From a virus, in IMG/VR virus record IMGVR_UViG_3300027759_003827, positions 24,817 to 88,816 of that record: 64,000 nucleotides of DNA; one strand, given 5' to 3'. The position numbers and the translations under genes are program-made. This document shows, one piece after another, positions 13,206 through 64,000 of the stretch (positions are counted from its first letter, which is position 1; each line of letters begins with the position of its first letter). The notes under the pieces are model-generated. The model worked only from the letters and a program-made list of their open reading frames with translations, was not told the DNA's origin and did no database searches.

Positions 13206-13220
13206 ATAATTTAAGTTTAG

Positions 13221-13291
13221 TTCCCACTCATGGATTCGAACCACAACAAACAGTACCAAAAACTGTCGTACTACCGTTATACTAAATGGGA
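13221..13291 (-). tRNA. tRNA-Gln (anticodon TTG)
   Basis: Acceptor TCCCATT / AGTGGGA, anticodon arm ACAGT-TTTTGGT-ACTGT giving anticodon TTG (reads CAA), T loop TTCGAAT, discriminator A. 71 nt, CCA not encoded. The cloverleaf is complete with a few wobble pairs in the T stem. Confidence 0.93.
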
Positions 13292-13299
13292 TGAAAGAG

Positions 13300-13384
13300 C
13301 GGAAAGACAGGGATTCGAACCCCAGAACCTATTACAGTTGCCGGTTTTCAAGACCGGTGCATTCAACCACTCTGCCATCTTTCC
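13300..13384 (-). tRNA. tRNA-Ser (anticodon TGA)
   Basis: Acceptor GGAAAGA / TCTTTCC, anticodon arm CCGGT-CTTGAAA-ACCGG giving TGA (reads UCA), a long variable arm as expected for serine, T loop TTCGAAT, discriminator G. 85 nt, CCA not encoded. A hairpin ACCTAG / CTAGGT lies just 5' of it in the spacer. Confidence 0.94.
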
Positions 13385-13500
13385 GTTTAACCTAGCACCA
13401 TCTCTAGGTCGTGTCCCTTCTAAGGTGTTACCTCTGACTGTCCATGCATGGAGTGGGATTCTGTCTCTGGTTGGCGGTTCACTACTCCGCTTTAGCTCTG

Positions 13501-13573
13501 AGCCTCGCTACGGACTTGAACCGCAGACCTGCTGATTACAAATCAGCTGCTCTACCAGCTGAGCTAGCAAGGC
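13501..13573 (-). tRNA. tRNA-Thr (anticodon TGT)
   Basis: Acceptor GCCTTGC / GCGAGGC, D arm GCTC-AGCTGGTA-GAGC, anticodon arm GCTGA-TTTGTAA-TCAGC giving TGT (reads ACA), T loop TTCAAGT, discriminator T. 73 nt, CCA not encoded. The 116-bp spacer to tRNA-Ser has small hairpins but no gene that I can support. Confidence 0.94.
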
Positions 13574-13811
13574 AAATGCAACTTTTAAAGAGATTACCCT
13601 ATGAGTTGCCAACATCGCCGACATACGATTCGGGGCTATTAAGCGAGCAGATCTTACGGTATGCCACGGCCGTCTTCGTCGTTCCACGTTCGAACGATAA
13701 TAAATTCAGGAAAGTAGAAGATGGGTGCGTGGACATCTACTTTTACGATTGGCATTTCTAACCGCGAGGTACCCGCCCTTTCTACAGTTAAAGGATACAT
13801 TCCAATCAACC
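13574..13811 (-). ncRNA. structured, gene-poor stretch between tRNAs; candidate ncRNA
   Basis: About 240 nt downstream of a sigma70-like promoter and ending at tRNA-Thr. It is visibly richer in G+C than the surroundings. It contains several inverted repeats: GCAACT / AGTTGC beside tRNA-Thr, AAAGTAGA / TCTACTTT, GATTGG / CCAATC, and the palindrome CGTTCGAACG. No T arm and no known RNA family (RNase P, SRP, 6S) is recognisable. It could be a leader or processing spacer, a novel small RNA, or the coding region of a 48-residue peptide. Confidence 0.35.
13654..13800 (-). CDS. possible 48-residue peptide in the tRNA block
   Basis: An ATG-to-TAA frame of 48 codons begins MYPLTVERAG and contains MPIVKVDVHAPIFYF. 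It lies 11 nt after the predicted start of a sigma70-like promoter. Its leader (GGTTGATTGGA) lacks the AT-rich pattern seen elsewhere and a strong hairpin lies inside it. Chance alone could give a frame this long. Weak call; structured RNA is the main alternative. Confidence 0.22.
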   Translation of the reverse strand: MYPLTVERAGTSRLEMPIVKVDVHAPIFYFPEFIIVRTWNDEDGRGIP

Positions 13812-13817
13812 TTTAAT

Positions 13818-13845
13818 ATTATAACAACTACCTACAATTTTTCAA
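13818..13845 (-). promoter_or_regulatory. sigma70-like promoter in the tRNA block
   Basis: TTGAAA at 13840-13845 and TATAAT at 13818-13823 with a 16-bp spacer, on the minus strand. It would drive tRNA-Thr, -Ser, -Gln and the RNAs beyond. The match is closer to the general bacterial consensus than to the Bacteroidota form (TTTG / TANNTTTG). Confidence 0.5.
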
Positions 13846-13897
13846 AGTCGCCTCCTCGTCATGCGATGGTTATACCCGCGGCAGGTAGTAGTTTTTG

Positions 13898-13969
13898 TTG
13901 CAAGAGAAGGATTCGAACCTCCGACCCCTAGGTTATGAGCCTAGTGAGCTACCTCTGCTCTATCTTGCG
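13898..13969 (-). tRNA. tRNA-Met (anticodon CAT), initiator type
   Basis: Acceptor CGCAAGA opposite TCTTGCA leaves a C1.A72 mismatch, the mark of bacterial initiator tRNA. The D stem GAGC / GCTC gives the initiator A11:U24 pair. Anticodon arm CTAGG-CTCATAA-CCTAG reads CAT, with two rather than three G:C pairs next to the loop. T loop TTCGAAT, discriminator A, no encoded CCA. It starts three bases past the tmRNA 3' end, so both come from one transcript. Two of three initiator features are present. Confidence 0.9.
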
Positions 13970-13972
13970 GTA

Positions 13973-14401
13973 TGGTGGAGATGGAGGGATTCGAACCCTC
14001 GTCTCCAGAAGTATAAATAATACCATTCTTACATGCTTTAGATCTACATTTTAAGCTGATCAGTAAAGGGCCGTACAGTTAAGTACCAGTTACCACCACT
14101 TGGTTTTATGACTACCAAGAAACTCCCAGAAGGAGCAGAGCTATAATACTGAGACTATAGCGGGGTTCACAATCCTTATTTAATGAGTCGATTGTGAGTA
14201 CTCATCGAATTCTGTTCCAAGGTATTCGCACCCGATGCAATTAAGCCGCTACTGCGTACTCGTTCGCGCCTACGAAAGACATTAAGTCTTCGAAGGTCAT
14301 AGTTGACATTTCGTCGTTTGTTGTTCGATAGAATATTTGAGTTCTACCACCTCTTGCATGCGATACTATCCATCTCATCTGGATCAAGTCCAGGCATCCC
14401 C
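13973..14401 (-). ncRNA. ssrA: transfer-messenger RNA (tmRNA)
   Basis: 429 nt. Ends pair as GGGGATG / CATCTCC with encoded A-CCA, and the T arm is GAGGG-TTCGAAT-CCCTC, so the tRNA-like domain is clear. A pseudoknot-1 candidate is visible: AGAG pairs with CTC, and GGTAGAA pairs with TTCTATC, in crossed order, at RNA positions about 50-75. An open tag frame then runs to GCT-TAA-TTGC and ends ANEYAVAA. By spacing from the pseudoknot the resume codon lies near position 81-87, giving a tag of about 24-26 residues beginning near NDEM. A resume codon at position 132 would instead give GANEYAVAA, like host-type tags. It rescues stalled ribosomes with SmpB. Confidence 0.93.
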
Positions 14402-23464: not shown

Positions 23465-25102
23465 TTAATACATGCCCATGTTCGGGTCTTGTTCTTGCTT
23501 CTTCTTATCGTCTCTCTTTTCGAATATAACTGATTCTGTTGTTAGAATAGTTCCTGCTACAGATGCTGCATTCTCTAAAGCTGTACGAGTTACCTTAGCT
23601 GGATCTAATAAACCTGCTGTAAATGCATCTACTATTTCTTGCTTCTTAGCATCATAAGTAAAGGAATCTGCCTCTGTTGCATTTTTTAAGATTGAATAGT
23701 AATCTTCAATACCGCAGTTACTTAGGATAGTCTTAAATGGTGCGTAACACGTTTTCTTTACAATATCAAAACCTAATAATTCATCTGATGATGTTTCTCT
23801 AGGTAAGATTGGTAAATTGTTAACTGCTTTAATTAAAGCAATACCGCCACCAGGAACAACTCCTTCTGTTAATGCTGCTTTAGTAGCAAATAGAGCATCT
23901 TCTACTCTATCTTTTCTCTCTTTAATTTCAATATCAGAATTACCTCCTACTGAAATAATAGCTACACCGCCGACTAGTTTACCTAATCTTTCTTGTAATT
24001 TCTCTTTCTCGTAGAATGAAGTAGCTTTCTCAATTTGATCTTTAATCTCTTGAGCACGTGCTGTAATCTTCTCTACCTCTCCATTACCATCTACGATAGT
24101 AGTTGTTTCTTTAGCTACGTTAACTGTTCTAGCTTTACCGAACATCTCTAAAAGTTGAACAGGAGTTAATTTATCTAACTTGTGTCCTTTGTCTTTAGAG
24201 ATAACTGTACCGCCTGTTAAGATAGCTAAGTCCTCTAAAATTAAAGTTCTTCTTTCGCCAAAGTCTGGAGCTTTAACTGCTGCTACTGAAACAATACCTC
24301 TCATCTTATTTACAATCAAAGTAGCTAATGCTTCATCTTCGATATCTTCTGCAACGATTAATAAAGGTTTATTATCTGAATTTACTTTGCTTAATGCATT
24401 TAATAATTCAGCTGCTTTAGTAATACGTCCATCGTAAATTAAAATATAGGGTTCAGTTAGAGAAGCATTCATCGTAGTGTTATTAGTAACAAAATATGGA
24501 GATTTATAACCTCTATCAAATTGCATCCCTTCTACAATCTCTAAACTAGTTTCACCTGTTTTAGATTCTTCAATAGTAACGATACCTTCTCTTCCTACCT
24601 TTTCAATAGCTGTAGAAATTAAGTTCCCTACTTCTACATCGCCGTTAGCTGAGATAGTAGCTACTTGTTGGATTTGATCTTGCGAACTTACATCCTTAGC
24701 AATCTTTTTAATTTGCTCTACTATTTGTGCTACATACTTATCGATACCTTTTTTTACCTCTACTGGATTAGAACCTTGGTTAATTAACTTTAAACCTTCT
24801 TCTACCATAGTAGCTGCAAGTAAAGTAGATGTAGTAGTACCATCGCCTGCTTCGTTAGCAGACTTAATAGATACTTGCTTTACTAATTGTGCACCTAAAT
24901 CTTCTACTTGGTCTTCTAACTCATGAAATGACTTAGCTACTGTAACGCCGTCTTTAGTTACTTTTACTTCTCCTGATTGATCTTTAATCAATACTGTTCT
25001 ACCGCCTGGACCTAGTGTTGAGGATACGGAATGGTTTAATTGTCTAATACCTGCTAGTAATTTATTCTTTAGCTCAATTCCAAAAACTGTCTGTGTTGCC
25101 AT
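23465..25102 (-). CDS. groEL: chaperonin GroEL
   Basis: 545 residues, full length. Landmarks include [12 protein letters not shown] (apical ATP-site start), [12 protein letters not shown] (the GDGTT ATPase motif, near residue 86), [15 protein letters not shown] and [12 protein letters not shown] (near 405). The C-terminal tail is [13 protein letters not shown], lacking the GGM repeats usual in bacterial GroEL. It forms a two-gene operon with groES three bases upstream. It probably folds phage capsid or tail proteins. The tail difference may alter substrate handling. Confidence 0.97.
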
Positions 25103-54343: not shown

Positions 54344-56659
54344 TTAGACTACGTTTAATTGCTGTTGATTAGCATTTTTAAAGATAATTTGACCTATTTT
54401 AGCTCCATCTATATAAACATCTCCTGTACTTTTACCGTTTCCAGAAGTTACATTTGTTCCTGAAGGTGTATAAGAGGTTGAACTACTTGCAGTTGAAGAA
54501 GCTGGAGTTGATGCAGCGCTCATACCAGTGCTAGGTATTGAGGTAGTACTGCTAGGCATTGCAGTTGTTTCGCCTCCTCCTCCTGCTCCGCTAGCACCGG
54601 TATCCCCTGGAGCTCCTAAACTATCCATTCCGCTCATTGATGAATTATAGGCTAAGTACCCCATTAACGTTGCGAATGCTGCTGCACCTACTGCTATAGC
54701 GCCTGGCCCTAAATAGGCTGATCCTGCTGTTACAGAACTTGCTGCACCAGCAGCTTTTGTTGTCGCTATAGCTGTTTCCCCTGCTAAACGAGAGGCCATT
54801 GTACTAAGCTCTTGCCTACTCATTGCTAAGTTTATAGCGTTTGCTGTTTTTATAGCAAAGCTATATGATGCTGCTGCTGCTAATAGACCGACAATGCCTG
54901 CAAATACTGTTTTAAGATTTTTCATGTTAGCTAACCAATCAGCGACTTTAGTAATCATTGGAAGCAGTACAGTTGCCATTTGTGCAATAGAATTTTTAAT
55001 AGCATCCATTGTAGCAGCAAGTTTTTCTGATACTGAGGCTTGTTGTGCACTATTTACTGCTTCTTCTCCTAATGTAGCTACTATTTGCTGTCTTGTTTTG
55101 TGTTGTGCAACTAGTATATCATACTGAGTACGTAAATCAGCGCCTGCAGCTTCACCTAGTACTTTTGCTTTTTCTTGATCTCTGAACATTTCTGCAATTG
55201 AATCTCTACTCATACCTATGGCTTCCGCTTTAGCTCTCTGTGAGATAGAATCTAATTGATTCCATTTTGCATTATCGCCGATAAGTCTATTAAGCTCTAC
55301 CATTAGCCCTTTAGTATCATGAGAAAGGGCAAGCTGTCTTGCTTTAGATAACTCTAAATTTTCGCCTGTTAGTACTTCGGCTTCAAATTGCTTTTGTATA
55401 CTAGTTTCAAAATCTAAAAACTGATCTTGAGTTGCATTAATTTTATCAAGAGTAGTACCTAATGCTTTGGCTTGTATTACTGCTCCTGTTAACTCTTTAT
55501 AATTACCTCTAAAATTTTGATATACGGTTGCAGATACTTTGCCGACTTCTTCTAGTACCTGCTTTTCTGATAATTCTAATTTAACTCTTGCACCAGTTTC
55601 TTTAGTAATACCTGAGATGGTTTTATAAGTTCCCATTAGAGTATCTCCTGATTTTTTAGCAGCAAACTGTAGTAATGCCATACTTTCAGCAGAAGCGCCA
55701 GTACGTCTTTCAATTAGAGCGGTACTTAAGTTAAACTCTTGACTTTGTTTAACAATAAACCCTAACTGATTCTGTACACCTTCGTATGATTTTTCTAATT
55801 GATCGGCAGTTACACCTAATTGTAAGTTAGCTTTTGCAAGCTCTATGAAACCAGTCCTTAATTCTTTTCCTCTAGCTACACTAACTCCTAAATTTTTAGC
55901 TGTTTCAAACTGTTTAGATTCAAAGTCGGCAGCTAATTTAGCAAGAGCAATAAATCCAGTCACTATACCAGGGAGGACTGTTGTAAGGTCTGTTAAGCTA
56001 TCGCCTGCTGTTTTAAAAGTTTCTTTTATTCCAGCGCCCATTACTCCAAGCTGCCCTTTCCCTTCACCGGCTGCTTTTTGCATTTTTTCAAGAATCTTTT
56101 CTGCATTGACAAGTTGTCCTACAATAGGTACTTGTGCAAGACCTTTAAAGATTTTACCGAGATTACCCATAGAAGATTCGATCTTTCTTGCGTACATCTC
56201 TTGCTGTGCATATACTGCTAATTGTTCTTTCTGCTTTTCTTTAAGCTCTCTTGTCATCTTAAGGAAAGTGCTTGCAGAGATTAATTGGTTCTTTCGAGCA
56301 TTTTTAATATCTATCTCTGCTTGTGCAGTTCTCTTTAAAAATTCGTTTTTTTGCTTAGTTATATCTCTTTCCTTAATAGACCCGTCTGCTATAGCTATCT
56401 GTGTTTTTAAGATATCTTGGCTAGATTTAGCCATGCTCTGAAGATCTTTATTAATACCAGAAGCAACTGATTTTCCCCAATCTCTAGTCTGTCTAGCAGC
56501 ATCCGATAGGTTATCGTTAATTTCGTCTTTAAGAAGTCTGCCTATACTCTCAAAAGAATCTTTTAGTATTTCTACTGTTTCTTTTAACTGTTCAAATTTT
56601 TCATTAGTCTTTCCAGCTTCGTCAGAAGTATTTCCGCCACCACCAGTTGAAGTAGCCAT
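54344..56659 (-). CDS. tape measure protein
   Basis: 771 residues from the ATG at 56659 (MATSTGGGG). An earlier ATG at 56683 lies only four bases after a TATTTAT element, so the later start is preferred. Long charged coiled coils (about 15-180), then Ala/Gly-rich hydrophobic helices (about 230-260 and 595-670), and a Ser/Thr-rich C-terminus are typical of tape measures. It sets tail length and is ejected into the cell. It lies after the gp26-like frameshift gene, as expected. Confidence 0.85.
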   Translation of the reverse strand: MATSTGGGGNTSDEAGKTNEKFEQLKETVEILKDSFESIGRLLKDEINDNLSDAARQTRDWGKSVASGINKDLQSMAKSSQDILKTQIAIADGSIKERDITKQKNEFLKRTAQAEIDIKNARKNQLISASTFLKMTRELKEKQKEQLAVYAQQEMYARKIESSMGNLGKIFKGLAQVPIVGQLVNAEKILEKMQKAAGEGKGQLGVMGAGIKETFKTAGDSLTDLTTVLPGIVTGFIALAKLAADFESKQFETAKNLGVSVARGKELRTGFIELAKANLQLGVTADQLEKSYEGVQNQLGFIVKQSQEFNLSTALIERRTGASAESMALLQFAAKKSGDTLMGTYKTISGITKETGARVKLELSEKQVLEEVGKVSATVYQNFRGNYKELTGAVIQAKALGTTLDKINATQDQFLDFETSIQKQFEAEVLTGENLELSKARQLALSHDTKGLMVELNRLIGDNAKWNQLDSISQRAKAEAIGMSRDSIAEMFRDQEKAKVLGEAAGADLRTQYDILVAQHKTRQQIVATLGEEAVNSAQQASVSEKLAATMDAIKNSIAQMATVLLPMITKVADWLANMKNLKTVFAGIVGLLAAAASYSFAIKTANAINLAMSRQELSTMASRLAGETAIATTKAAGAASSVTAGSAYLGPGAIAVGAAAFATLMGYLAYNSSMSGMDSLGAPGDTGASGAGGGGETTAMPSSTTSIPSTGMSAASTPASSTASSSTSYTPSGTNVTSGNGKSTGDVYIDGAKIGQIIFKNANQQQLNVV

Positions 56660-56687
56660 GTAAAATTTACGTAGTAAGTCCATGTAT

Positions 56688-56704: not shown

Positions 56705-57004
56705 CTATTTTTTAGACACTTTGCTCGTATATGTAGGTATTGCTTTAGTTGAGTTTGGAATTCCTGGTTTTGCTAGAGGTTTATTAGCTGTAACTAATTT
56801 TCCTTTGTTACTAGCTTGATCGTTTGCTTCTTGCTGTTTTTCGTAAAAATCATTCATAGTTTTATAAGTGAAATTACGTAGCCAAATAGGCATATTATAT
56901 ACAGTCTCCCAATTATAACCTCCTTTTCCGTAGAATACTATCTCATGTATTTGGGTAAAGAGAGCGGATCTATACTCCTGTGGAAGGATAAAAAAAGGAA
57001 GCTT
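56705..57004 (-). CDS. frameshift extension of the gp26-like gene (gp51-like C-terminal part)
   Basis: The +1 frame relative to the 254-residue gene is open from 57004 to the TAA at 56705 (99 codons). It contains RSALFTQIHEIVFYGKGGY and NMPIWLRNFTYKTMNDFYE, a conserved-looking domain. No ATG, GTG or TTG occurs before the Met at 56893. A start there would cut the domain in two. The two frames overlap by about 35 nt around a T7 run at 56990-56996. A fused product of about 346 residues would resemble the paired tape-measure chaperones of other phages. An assembly error in the T run is the alternative. Confidence 0.68.
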   Translation of the reverse strand, partial: KLPFFILPQEYRSALFTQIHEIVFYGKGGYNWETVYNMPIWLRNFTYKTMNDFYEKQQEANDQASNKGKLVTANKPLAKPGIPNSTKAIPTYTSKVSKK

Positions 57005-57734
57005 CTATTGGTAGATCTACACCCTCCTGTGTGTAGCCGTCTGAACCGACAAAAGTAAAAGTTAAGTTTAGGTCTGGAGTTATTTTTCTCATATAATTTC
57101 TTAAAGCTCTAGCATCGGTAGCTAATAAGTAGGTATCTACAAACTCTCTAATGTCTTTCTTGTCTCTACTACCGTTAATTGATACGATAGATTGTTTTAG
57201 TCTTGTAGTAACGTCTGCAGATAAGTTAATTTTTTTAAGTCCCTTTAATTCAATTTCAATCTGCTTTTCATCTCTATGAGTTAGTATTTTAAAAATAATT
57301 TCGTTTTTAGACTGAGGTAAGGTGAATGTAAACTCATTTAAATTCTTACATAAATCGTAATCAACTTCTTTATTCTTTATTTCTGCAAGATCGATAGTAA
57401 TAAGCTCTTCCTCTCCTGTAATCGGATGAGGATACTTAGTTTGGTAGTCTTTACCGTAACCTAAAATACGTGCTGCAATTAAAATTGCATTTTTATCACC
57501 TACTGTTAAGTCGTCGTAGTTAATTTTAGATACAATAAGGGATTGAAATAATTTATCAAATACTACTCCTTGACGGATATAGTTTTGATTAGATAAAATA
57601 TCCTCTTCTTTAGCAGTCATGTATTTCATTTCGATTTTGCCAGAAGATAAAGGATTCTCTAAAGGATACAAAAGTCCTTTTGAAGGTAGTTCAACAGTCT
57701 CTGTAGGGAGACTCATTTTTGGTTGGTTTTCCAT
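56970..57734 (-). CDS. T4 gp26-like baseplate/tail assembly chaperone
   Basis: 254 residues. VELPSKGLLYPLENPLSSGKIEMKYMT followed by AKEEDILSN matches the T4 baseplate-hub family (PF12322). The rest is helical with the FTFVGSDGYTQEGVDLPIEAS end. The 3' end contains TTTTTTT, after which the +1 frame continues into a further conserved domain. Its spot between tail tube and tape measure matches gp26 and the usual tail chaperone position. Likely two products: short form and frameshifted long form. Confidence 0.85.
   Translation of the reverse strand: MENQPKMSLPTETVELPSKGLLYPLENPLSSGKIEMKYMTAKEEDILSNQNYIRQGVVFDKLFQSLIVSKINYDDLTVGDKNAILIAARILGYGKDYQTKYPHPITGEEELITIDLAEIKNKEVDYDLCKNLNEFTFTLPQSKNEIIFKILTHRDEKQIEIELKGLKKINLSADVTTRLKQSIVSINGSRDKKDIREFVDTYLLATDARALRNYMRKITPDLNLTFTFVGSDGYTQEGVDLPIEASFFYPSTGV
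56990..56996 (-). other. T7 slippery site, probable programmed +1 (or -2) frameshift
   Basis: Seven T on the minus strand, reading TCC TTT TTT TAT in the zero frame. A +1 or -2 shift here leads into the frame of 56705-57004. The window in which both frames are open is about 35 nt (from 57004 to the TAG at 56970-56972), and this is the only homopolymer in it. Confidence 0.6.
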
Positions 57735-57831: not shown

Positions 57832-58317
57832 TTAGTAGTTAAGGATACAATAATCCATTCCTATACCTAATTCAATTGTGATAGCGTCTTGATTAGACCA
57901 ATCGTAAGAACCAAAGTTTGATGTCTTAACGAAAGCTCCTTTGATAATCCACTCTGATACTACATCGCCTACTGGTCCTAAGATAGATAAGTTAAGGTCT
58001 TTTTTGTAGAAGTCAGAATAACCATCACGGCCAGTTACTGATTCATGTGATAAACGAATCCACTCCATTACGGCTTGTTGACCTGAAGGAGAGATTGGGT
58101 TGTATAAGTTTAAAGTCATATCTTGCCACTCAGCCTTACCCTTAATCTTACGGTAAACGTTGATATGGTCGATTTTAACTTCGTTCAAGTTGATGTTTGG
58201 TGCAGTTGCACTTTTGATCATAAATGAAGGGATACCGTCAATATACATGATGAAACGGTTCTGAACGGTTGGTTCAAAGGCCGTAAACATAATTTCATTT
58301 GGATCTAATACTGGCAT
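57832..58317 (-). CDS. tail tube protein (gp19-like)
   Basis: 161 residues, close to T4 gp19 (163). FEPTVQNRFIMYIDGIPSFMI opens the fold, KGKAEWQDMTLNLYNPISPSG is the central strand pair, and the end GIGMDYCILNY matches the tube family. It polymerises inside the sheath. Own promoter element and own terminator flank it. Confidence 0.92.
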   Translation of the reverse strand: MPVLDPNEIMFTAFEPTVQNRFIMYIDGIPSFMIKSATAPNINLNEVKIDHINVYRKIKGKAEWQDMTLNLYNPISPSGQQAVMEWIRLSHESVTGRDGYSDFYKKDLNLSILGPVGDVVSEWIIKGAFVKTSNFGSYDWSNQDAITIELGIGMDYCILNY

Positions 58318-61622: not shown

Positions 61623-62375
61623 TTACAGTATTTTATTTTCTTTTAAGAAATTATATAGGTTATTTGCATAGATTCTGTTGTGTTCAGGGCCAGGATGTGC
61701 ACCATCTGATCCATAGTCTCTATAATTCCTATAATCATCGTCAAATCGATTAGGTTCTTCTATAGCTTTATATACATGGGCTCCATTCCATACAAACGGA
61801 GTATTTTTAGTCTGTAAAAAATATTTAATCAATAAGTGGTTCTTATACCAGTTAACAGTTCCATCTTCTTTATTAGTAATATTAGATAAATGATGGTATG
61901 TCTCTCTTCCTGCGGGGTCTTCTTTAAAGTACCCCCAAGGATTCCATGCAAAAGGTTCAACTCCTCCTTCATTAGTATAGTAGTCTCTTCTATCTTGGTT
62001 TGGATACATTATTAAAACCAAGTCTGGTTTAATTAAGTCGTAATATGTTAATAAACATCTTGAAACGTAATCGCTACTTCTACCTCCGAATCCGAAGTTT
62101 AAATCTACTGCGTTAGGTATTAGTTTACAGAGTTGATGTGACCAGGTTTTATTATCATCTACTCCTACTCCTTCTGTATGTGAACAGCCTAAAGACATTA
62201 CCTTAAATCCTTCTCTAGTAGGTTCATCTCCTCTAAATCCTAAAGAGTTATAAGTGTAAGTGTTTTCTCCTGAGTTATCAGATCCTGATGTCTTATACAC
62301 TTTACTTTTTCTTGCTTCTAACTTCCACTTATAGGAAGATACTTCAAACGTATCTGGTGTCCAATATTTTATCAT
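61623..62375 (-). CDS. SGNH/GDSL-like hydrolase
   Basis: 250 residues. VMSLGCSHTEGVGV carries the block I serine (GxSxT in place of GDS). NFGFGGRSSDYVSR resembles block II/III glycine-asparagine positions, and DGAHPGPEHN has the block V Asp-x-x-His pair (near residue 227). The set fits SGNH esterases/acetyltransferases, which trim acyl groups on glycans. It overlaps the sulfotransferase-like gene by four bases. Substrate unknown. Confidence 0.78.
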   Translation of the reverse strand: MIKYWTPDTFEVSSYKWKLEARKSKVYKTSGSDNSGENTYTYNSLGFRGDEPTREGFKVMSLGCSHTEGVGVDDNKTWSHQLCKLIPNAVDLNFGFGGRSSDYVSRCLLTYYDLIKPDLVLIMYPNQDRRDYYTNEGGVEPFAWNPWGYFKEDPAGRETYHHLSNITNKEDGTVNWYKNHLLIKYFLQTKNTPFVWNGAHVYKAIEEPNRFDDDYRNYRDYGSDGAHPGPEHNRIYANNLYNFLKENKIL

Positions 62376-62932
62376 AGTAGAGTTTTAATATTAGTTTCTA
62401 AGTTGATTCTGTACTTTTTTCCGTAGGGAAATCCTATGTTTTCTAGGCCTTCAATACTTAAATACTCTAATACTCTTTTAAAACCGCTACCGTAGTATAG
62501 TTCTTCGTAAGATACTCTAAAATAATCCTTAGCTAAATAATGTTCTTTAAAAACTCTTTTTACTTCTTTAAAAGATTTCTCTTCTTTTTCATTTTTTAAA
62601 CTACTGTACACCCATTGATCTCCCCAATTATTTTCAATAGTAGCATTTATCCATGAATCTAACTGCTCTCTTTCATTCTCTCTGTACAATAGTATTACTT
62701 TATCAGAGATTGAAATTAACTCATTAAAATGCAATCCATTACCTAAGATCTCTTTTACAAGTAAGTGTTCTGTAGAGTATTTCCACTCAGAAGGCGGCGT
62801 ACTGCCTTTGAACCATTTCATCTTTGAATTTGTCATTGGTTCAAACAGGACAGTAAAGTCTTGCTTAGAACAAAACCAATTTGCTAAATTAGTCGAACCA
62901 GATCTAGGCTCTGCTAAAATTGTTATAATCAC
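62372..62932 (-). CDS. sulfotransferase-like P-loop protein
   Basis: 186 residues. TILAEPRSGSTNLANWFCSK at the N-terminus matches the PAPS-binding 5' loop (PRSGST). VILLYRENEREQLDSWINA resembles the 3'-phosphate binding region (LxRxNxxxQxxS). The C-terminus has the YEELY helix. Such enzymes move a sulfo group to sugars or proteins, or are related phage paralogues. A second related protein lies at 63492. Donor synthesis genes are not visible. Confidence 0.78.
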   Translation of the reverse strand: MIITILAEPRSGSTNLANWFCSKQDFTVLFEPMTNSKMKWFKGSTPPSEWKYSTEHLLVKEILGNGLHFNELISISDKVILLYRENEREQLDSWINATIENNWGDQWVYSSLKNEKEEKSFKEVKRVFKEHYLAKDYFRVSYEELYYGSGFKRVLEYLSIEGLENIGFPYGKKYRINLETNIKTLL

Positions 62933-63483
62933 AGTAAAGTTTTTTTATCTGAATTATTTCGTTTTAAAGTAATCCAGGTTACTAATGAAAACCTACTACC
63001 GTTTGTTATTGGTGTTACTTTGTGTAGTAAATTTGAATTAAAAATAAATAAATTTCCAATACCCTTTTCAAAAGTATATTCTAACATATTTGATTCTTTA
63101 TATAATAAATCTCCGCCTTCATAATCATTATTTAATTGTATTACAGCTGTGTAAAATCTATCTCTAAATATCTCACCATCTCCAGAATCACTATGCCAAT
63201 CATAGTGTCCTCCAATATCATATTTTATAAATTGAAATTTATTAATAGGACCTAGTTCATACCCTTTTAATTTAATTTCTTCTTTTAGTAAAGCTTCTAA
63301 CTTTGATTGCAAAATTTCATTTTCAATTCTAACTATTTTTGCGTCTCTTATTTTTTTAAGTTCTTGTAAGCTGAGATTACTTCCTATATTTCCATTTTCT
63401 AATTCTTTTTTAGAATTTTCATTAATGATAACTTCACACTCATTTTTATTTAAAAAATCTTTAAATGTTTTTATAAATTGCAT
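62929..63483 (-). CDS. 2OG-Fe(II) oxygenase, prolyl 4-hydroxylase-like
   Basis: 184 residues. HYDWHSDSGDG (HxD-type metal pair, near residue 103), QLNNDYEGGDLLYKE, FNSNLLHKVTPITNGSRFSLVTW (distal His and the Arg that binds 2-oxoglutarate). The strand order fits the P4H superfamily common in T4-like phages. The target could be a protein or base. It overlaps the sulfotransferase-like gene by four bases. Confidence 0.85.
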   Translation of the reverse strand: MQFIKTFKDFLNKNECEVIINENSKKELENGNIGSNLSLQELKKIRDAKIVRIENEILQSKLEALLKEEIKLKGYELGPINKFQFIKYDIGGHYDWHSDSGDGEIFRDRFYTAVIQLNNDYEGGDLLYKESNMLEYTFEKGIGNLFIFNSNLLHKVTPITNGSRFSLVTWITLKRNNSDKKTLL

Positions 63484-63491
63484 TCTAAATT

Positions 63492-64000
63492 TTATATTAA
63501 AGATTTTATATTTTTTGTAGAGGCACTATCTAACCTATATCTATTTTTAATATCTAAAAACATCTTAAAGTATTCTTCAACATGTTCTATCTCCAAATAC
63601 TTAAATAAGTTGTCGAAGCTATTATAGTATAAGTCTTCGTAGTAGAAAACCTTAGCATTTAGATGCTCTTCTAGTTCTTGGATTCTGCTCTTCTCATCTA
63701 ACAGTACCTTATCCATTTCATCCATGAAAAAGTCTAACTTTTCATCAATAAGATATCTAGTGGGTTCCAGGAAAGAATTGTGCTTAGCAGCATATGCTAG
63801 GCTTTCAGTTTGTTCTTTGTGATTCCTTCTCGACAATACAAGAATTTTGTCAAAGTCCTGTTTAACAGCTTCGTAGGGAATTTGCTTATAAAAAAACAAT
63901 CCGATAGCTGATTTTACAAATACGTTCTTGCTAGATACGATTTGAGTGTACTCTACTTTATTCTTTGCTTCTAATTCAGCGACTAAAGGAGACCAGGGTT
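63492..64000 (-). CDS. sulfotransferase-like protein, 5' end outside the window
   Basis: The frame is open from the window edge (reading PWSPLVAELEAKNKVEYTQI) to the stop at 63492, so at least 168 residues. An apparent TTG start at 63899 is not needed. KILVLSRRNHKEQTESLAYA matches the 3'-phosphate binding part, and KVFYYEDLYY the later helix of sulfotransferase-like proteins. The P-loop lies beyond the edge. It resembles the protein at 62372 in arrangement. Confidence 0.72.
   Translation of the reverse strand, partial: PWSPLVAELEAKNKVEYTQIVSSKNVFVKSAIGLFFYKQIPYEAVKQDFDKILVLSRRNHKEQTESLAYAAKHNSFLEPTRYLIDEKLDFFMDEMDKVLLDEKSRIQELEEHLNAKVFYYEDLYYNSFDNLFKYLEIEHVEEYFKMFLDIKNRYRLDSASTKNIKSLI

Follow-up and report, generated by a model that had tools for sequence, protein, structure and literature searches.

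In the 64,000-nucleotide stretch of viral DNA analysed here (the window; positions 24,817 to 88,816 of IMG/VR record IMGVR_UViG_3300027759_003827), two overlapping reading frames on the minus strand very probably encode one tail assembly chaperone, which would be made in a short and a long form by a +1 slip at UUU_UUU_U, as sequence comparison suggests. The frame of the gp26-like gene stops at 56970-56972 and the last stop in the +1 frame lies at 57005-57007. From 57004 the +1 frame is open for 99 codons of the minus strand, up to a stop at 56705-56707, and its first ATG, GTG or TTG is the 38th codon, at 56893. A conventional ORF covers only the last 62 codons (56705-56893), omitting 32 of the 94 residues that would follow the slip, and is probably not a gene by itself, given that no start is conserved among the relatives. 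The fused product would comprise about 342 residues. An earlier sequence-only reading had described this arrangement correctly, namely a domain open solely in the +1 frame, lacking an upstream start and joined to the 254-residue gene at a T7 run within a short overlap, of which a 62-residue ORF would miss a third. It had likewise placed the pair properly between the tail tube and tape measure genes, the usual place of tail assembly chaperones (Table 1). The tape measure protein was recognised by its similarity to the protein annotated as such in Flavobacterium phage immuto (27% identity over 412 aa, E 3e-22), and the tail tube protein by a match to phrog_4542 (7e-23) and by 64% identity to the immuto protein in the same position.

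Table 1. Features of the chaperone locus, with positions in the window unless a relative is named
Feature	Position	Strand	Basis
Tail tube protein, next upstream gene	57832..58317	-	phrog_4542; immuto counterpart
Short form (TAC-N) of the gp26-like tail assembly chaperone, 254 aa	56970..57734	-	PF12322, phrog_150, AlphaFold model
Two-frame overlap of 35 nt, within which the shift must fall	56970..57004	-	Stops of both frames
T7 shift site, read in the gp26 frame as TCC TTT TTT TAT	56990..56996	-	Sequence; TTT[TC]TTT in 139/139 relatives
Hidden domain of gp51-C type (TAC-C), 94 codons in the +1 frame	56708..56989	-	Frame, selection, hhalign, predicted helices
62-aa ORF, truncated part of the hidden domain	56705..56893	-	Gene-finder-type ORF
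Tape measure protein, next downstream gene	54344..56683	-	Identity to Flavobacterium phage immuto
Split form, gp51-like domain with its own ATG	L194:2217-2540 and L199:2214-2511		

Elsewhere the window carries a phage-encoded tmRNA (13973-14401, minus strand; Rfam RF00023, 70 bits) with the tag ANEYAVAA, adjoined by genes for tRNA-Gln, -Ser, -Thr and -Met at 13220-13969. A minus-strand block between the sheath region and the window end (61623-63899) contains a 2OG-Fe(II) oxygenase (PF13640, 1.7e-13), a sulfotransferase-like ORF judged by its N-terminus, with no Pfam match, and a GDSL-like ORF scoring below its cutoff.

The 254-residue product matches PF12322 at 30.8 bits (curated cutoff 24.5) and the baseplate hub family phrog_150 at 2.8e-14. 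Its AlphaFold model has a pLDDT of 92.7, and its BFVD matches are T4-like baseplate hub proteins, that of SP-15 among them. In the PDB list, the match of the TAC-N model to the solved HK97 chaperone 2ob9 is weak (E 2.5, probability 0.23, TMt 0.48), and the gp26 alignment found nothing when searched against PDB sequences. The hidden domain aligns with the last ~45 residues of gp51 from T4 and other Straboviridae (hhalign probability 93, E 3.5e-7). The family phrog_634, “baseplate hub assembly catalyst,” was matched by 11 of 66 members, with cyanophage-type members reaching 3e-29, and the hidden domain of the window on its own stayed below significance against it. The term “gp51-like” used in the earlier reading is apt for the C-terminal module but not beyond it; in T4, gp26 is as much a member of PF12322 as gp51. 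The two halves were modelled apart. The hidden domain (mean pLDDT 71) is predicted to form three helices, spanning residues 4-20, 27-31 and 35-62, and to end in a tail of low confidence.

Scanning viral contigs twice yielded 160 relatives, which together with the window's own genome make 161 loci. The second ORF lies in the +1/-2 frame in 161/161, so that the canonical -1 site X_XXY_YYZ does not apply here, and none has an in-frame fusion. Join and selection counts were made on the 139 non-identical sequences, and since the relatives share ancestry, naive probabilities computed from such counts overstate independence and serve as a guide only. The comparison of the overlap and the T7 run across related phages, proposed in the earlier reading, finds a join that always reads TTT[TC]TTT, i.e. 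TTT-(T/C)TT-T (139/139), in the variants TTTTTTTGG (102 sequences), TTTCTTTGG (16), TTTTTTTA (13), TTTTTTTTC (7) and TTTCTTTA (1); TTTCTTT replaces T7 in 17 of them. The first codon is invariably TTT despite the use of TTC elsewhere in these genes (937 TTT against 234 TTC), which argues for a constraint at the nucleotide level. Furthermore, the codon preceding T7 ends in T in only 7 of 122 cases, compared with 68.5 expected from codon usage, indicating that the -1 heptamer U_UUU_UUU is avoided.

The stretch from the gp26 stop to the first ATG is free of stops in the domain frame (0/139 sequences with one), whereas the other frames are interrupted in 114 and 136 sequences. By this sequence measure it is also under purifying selection in the domain frame: the median pN/pS is 0.36 there, and 1.6 and 1.7 in the others. 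No start position for the hidden domain is shared among the relatives, and 88 of 136 lack any ATG before the GG[YF] motif. Downstream of the site no conserved RNA structure was found (mean z -0.6 to -1.0, a signal not above that on the upstream side), a stimulatory hairpin gave no clear signal there, and the shift site has no Rfam match. Judged by this conservation, the frameshift at the join is conserved and programmed, not an error, which lends strong support to the programmed frameshift from a gp26-like to a gp51-like domain that had been read from the window alone.

The final frame could be reached by a +1 slip or by a -2 slip of the type known from phage Mu, and the earlier reading had admitted both. 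The frame relation that it gave stands, while the joins of other lineages favour the +1 direction. At the window's T7 the two slips re-pair equally well (UUU to UUU). A Mu-like -2 slip on UUU_UUU_U, which would give the same fusion with one extra phenylalanine, is nevertheless unlikely. It arrives in the same frame, the A-site tRNA would re-pair perfectly at T7, codon 1 is invariably TTT in the window's clade, and -2 slips occur naturally in Mu and in arteriviruses (PMC5009743). However, the join is TTC TTT TGG in L184-L198 and TTT CTA TTC in L165, both nested within the window's own supported 18-row clade; it is TTC TTT CGT in GXN1, TTT TTT CAC in SP-15, TTT TTT AGT in LIS04 and CTR TTT C in the Streptomyces phages of the BRock group (CUG_UUU_CGC in BRock itself). 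At TTC TTT TGG, TTC TTT CGT, TTT CTA TTC and CTR TTT C, re-pairing after -2 fails, whereas the +1 movement from UUU to UUY works. Re-pairing after -2 is also poor at the 17 TTT CTT T sites, and a tandem -2 slip would leave the P-site codon mispaired in nearly all sequences. Every +1 locus whose join is resolved has UUU in the P site with U or C next to it. As for the codon in the A site, the window has UUU/UAU, 118 of the 139 relatives have UGG, and the Streptomyces phages have CGN or CAG. Because the sister-lineage joins permit +1 and several of them do not permit -2, +1 rather than -2 is the favoured direction in the window's phage. The two directions would be distinguishable by the tryptic junction peptide, predicted to end in EASFFILPQEYR without an extra Phe after +1, and in EASFFFILPQEYR with an extra Phe after -2.

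The remaining explanations do without ribosomal slipping. RNA polymerase slippage might bring a share of transcripts into frame, and T7 is indeed a homopolymer, but neither TTTCTTT (17/139), which argues against simple slippage on a homopolymer, nor CTR TTT C in the BRock group is a homopolymer of slipping length, and other lineages carry the classic ribosomal heptamer U_UUU_UUC; we regard this as very improbable. Marginally less credit still goes to separate translation of the second domain, from the ATG at 56893 or by re-initiation past the gp26 stop. The earlier reading had named as a case that would speak against a frameshift any relative in which the second domain has a start codon of its own, and such relatives exist: in L194 and L199 an ATG lies 3-5 nt past the gp26 stop and opens a hidden-type domain with an extended N-terminus. 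They are, however, the only two, and precisely those without UUU at the join (TTC TTG TAT in L194, TTC CTT TGG in L199), although both are nested in the +1 clade, so that their separate starts support the role of the slip site rather than weaken it. In the window itself the first possible start at 56893 would remove part of a domain that is under selection, many relatives are ATG-less before GG[YF], and no start position is common to all. A sequencing or assembly error in T7, with the gene truly continuous, has a negligible chance, for although homopolymers are prone to such errors, the same frame relation recurs at every locus, from many metagenomes as well as the isolates immuto and Mel-JY01, and the site occurs as TTTCTTT too, which refutes the error for the family.

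For the +1 slip, the two frames, their conservation, the selection on site and hidden domain, and the position of the genes are read directly from the sequences, and from these we infer ribosomal slipping, its +1 direction in this phage, the ratio of the two forms and their part in assembly. The majority of ribosomes would terminate at 56970 and yield the short gp26-type protein (TAC-N). In a minority the P-site tRNA-Phe would advance by a single base at UUU_UUU_U, from UUU to an overlapping UUU, and the slipped ribosome would continue into the hidden domain to yield the long form (TAC-NC). By analogy with gpG and gpGT of lambda, the short form may coat the tape measure protein, while the long form may recruit tube subunits.

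Vladimirov, Gautam and Davidson reportedly identified the tail chaperone genes of T4-like phages in a 2022 article in Virology. In lambda, the gpG/gpGT frameshift is a -1 shift on GGGAAAG. Like the present pair, that of lambda consists of two overlapping ORFs flanked by the tail tube and tape measure genes, the second without a start of its own, but it differs in direction (+1 on UUU_Y in the window) and, as far as can be told from sequence, in protein family. According to a review, long-tailed phages other than T4 conserve the G-T frameshift (PMC5009743). Two papers that cite the 2022 article state that some T4-like phages have one short and one fused chaperone gene (PMC10885494), and that TAC-N genes of the T4-like kind carry poly-T signals for a -1 shift (PMC12846349), in contrast to the +1/-2 relation in the window. 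The literature thus already contains both the chaperone role of T4 gp26/gp51 and, for T4-like phages, a -1 shift. In the literature searched, from which the 2022 Virology paper on T4 was absent, the +1 UUU_Y variant, the switch of direction and the rare split form seem to be unreported. With T4 gp26/gp51 the window's phage shares the N-terminal PF12322 part, the gp51 C-terminal module and, probably, the short and long chaperone forms. The difference is that Straboviridae have two paralogous genes, a short gp26 and a long gp51 that is read in frame, as opposed to one gene with a frameshift. T4 gp26 (L171:3803-4429) ends in GAG TTC TTT GAG TTA CTA TAA, with Phe-Phe kept and the hidden domain absent, and gene 25 starts immediately after it. 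Phage Mu is alike in that its -2 shift serves a tail chaperone and leads to the same final frame as +1, but it differs in that -2 re-pairing is lost in the window's sister lineages. The closest parallel to the slip itself is the +1 site of influenza A PA-X, UCC_UUU_CGU (PMC3498833), where the P-site tRNA-Phe likewise moves from UUU to UUY; UUC_UUU_CGU of GXN1 and the BRock site are similar to it. The window's UUU_UUU_UAU, by contrast, lacks the rare CGN codon and belongs to a tail chaperone in a bacterial host.

Other members of PF12322 have other arrangements. Cyanophage (Kyanoviridae) gp26/gp51 has a homologous two-domain layout, but the domain lies in the -1 frame at NNU_UUU_UUC (61 of 63 cyanophage-type sequences, all those that could be assigned), and this -1 shift falls on the same Phe-Phe codons as the shift of the +1 lineages. 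Among isolates, Atu_ph07 and PA5oct have a -1 site at U_UUU_UUC, CM1 and XacN1 at U_UUU_UUU, and the uncultured relative L170 is also -1. On the gp26 tree, which has long and poorly resolved deep branches, the five states require 6 changes; SP-15 and RM378 as queries of the viral contigs retrieved no further relatives. We lean, if only slightly, toward regarding the Phe-Phe codons of PF12322 chaperones as a switchable recoding point. The window's lineage and Thornevirus-like, Rhodothermus and Streptomyces phages would shift +1 there at UUU_Y, and cyanophages, like several phages with large genomes, -1 at U_UUU_UUY, whereas gene duplication would take the place of the shift in Straboviridae, and a split with a separate start for the domain would do so in a single nested lineage. 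On this view, the influenza PA-X +1 site would have a broad counterpart among bacterial viruses in UUU_Y.

In existing records, the region of the hidden domain is annotated only as short separate ORFs in S-RIM50 (L174:3220-3357), immuto (L162:4845-4955) and SP-15 (L164:4821-4940), and the 45-aa ORF that carries the cyanophage label “gp51” is the hidden domain in truncated form. The second domain is absent or truncated in the records of immuto, SP-15, LIS04, GXN1 and S-RIM50, whose annotation can be corrected. A large metagenomic group of T4-type phages appears to retain the tail chaperone frameshift, and the choice of +1 or -1 by lineage at the same two codons would offer a natural experiment on what sets the direction of a slip.
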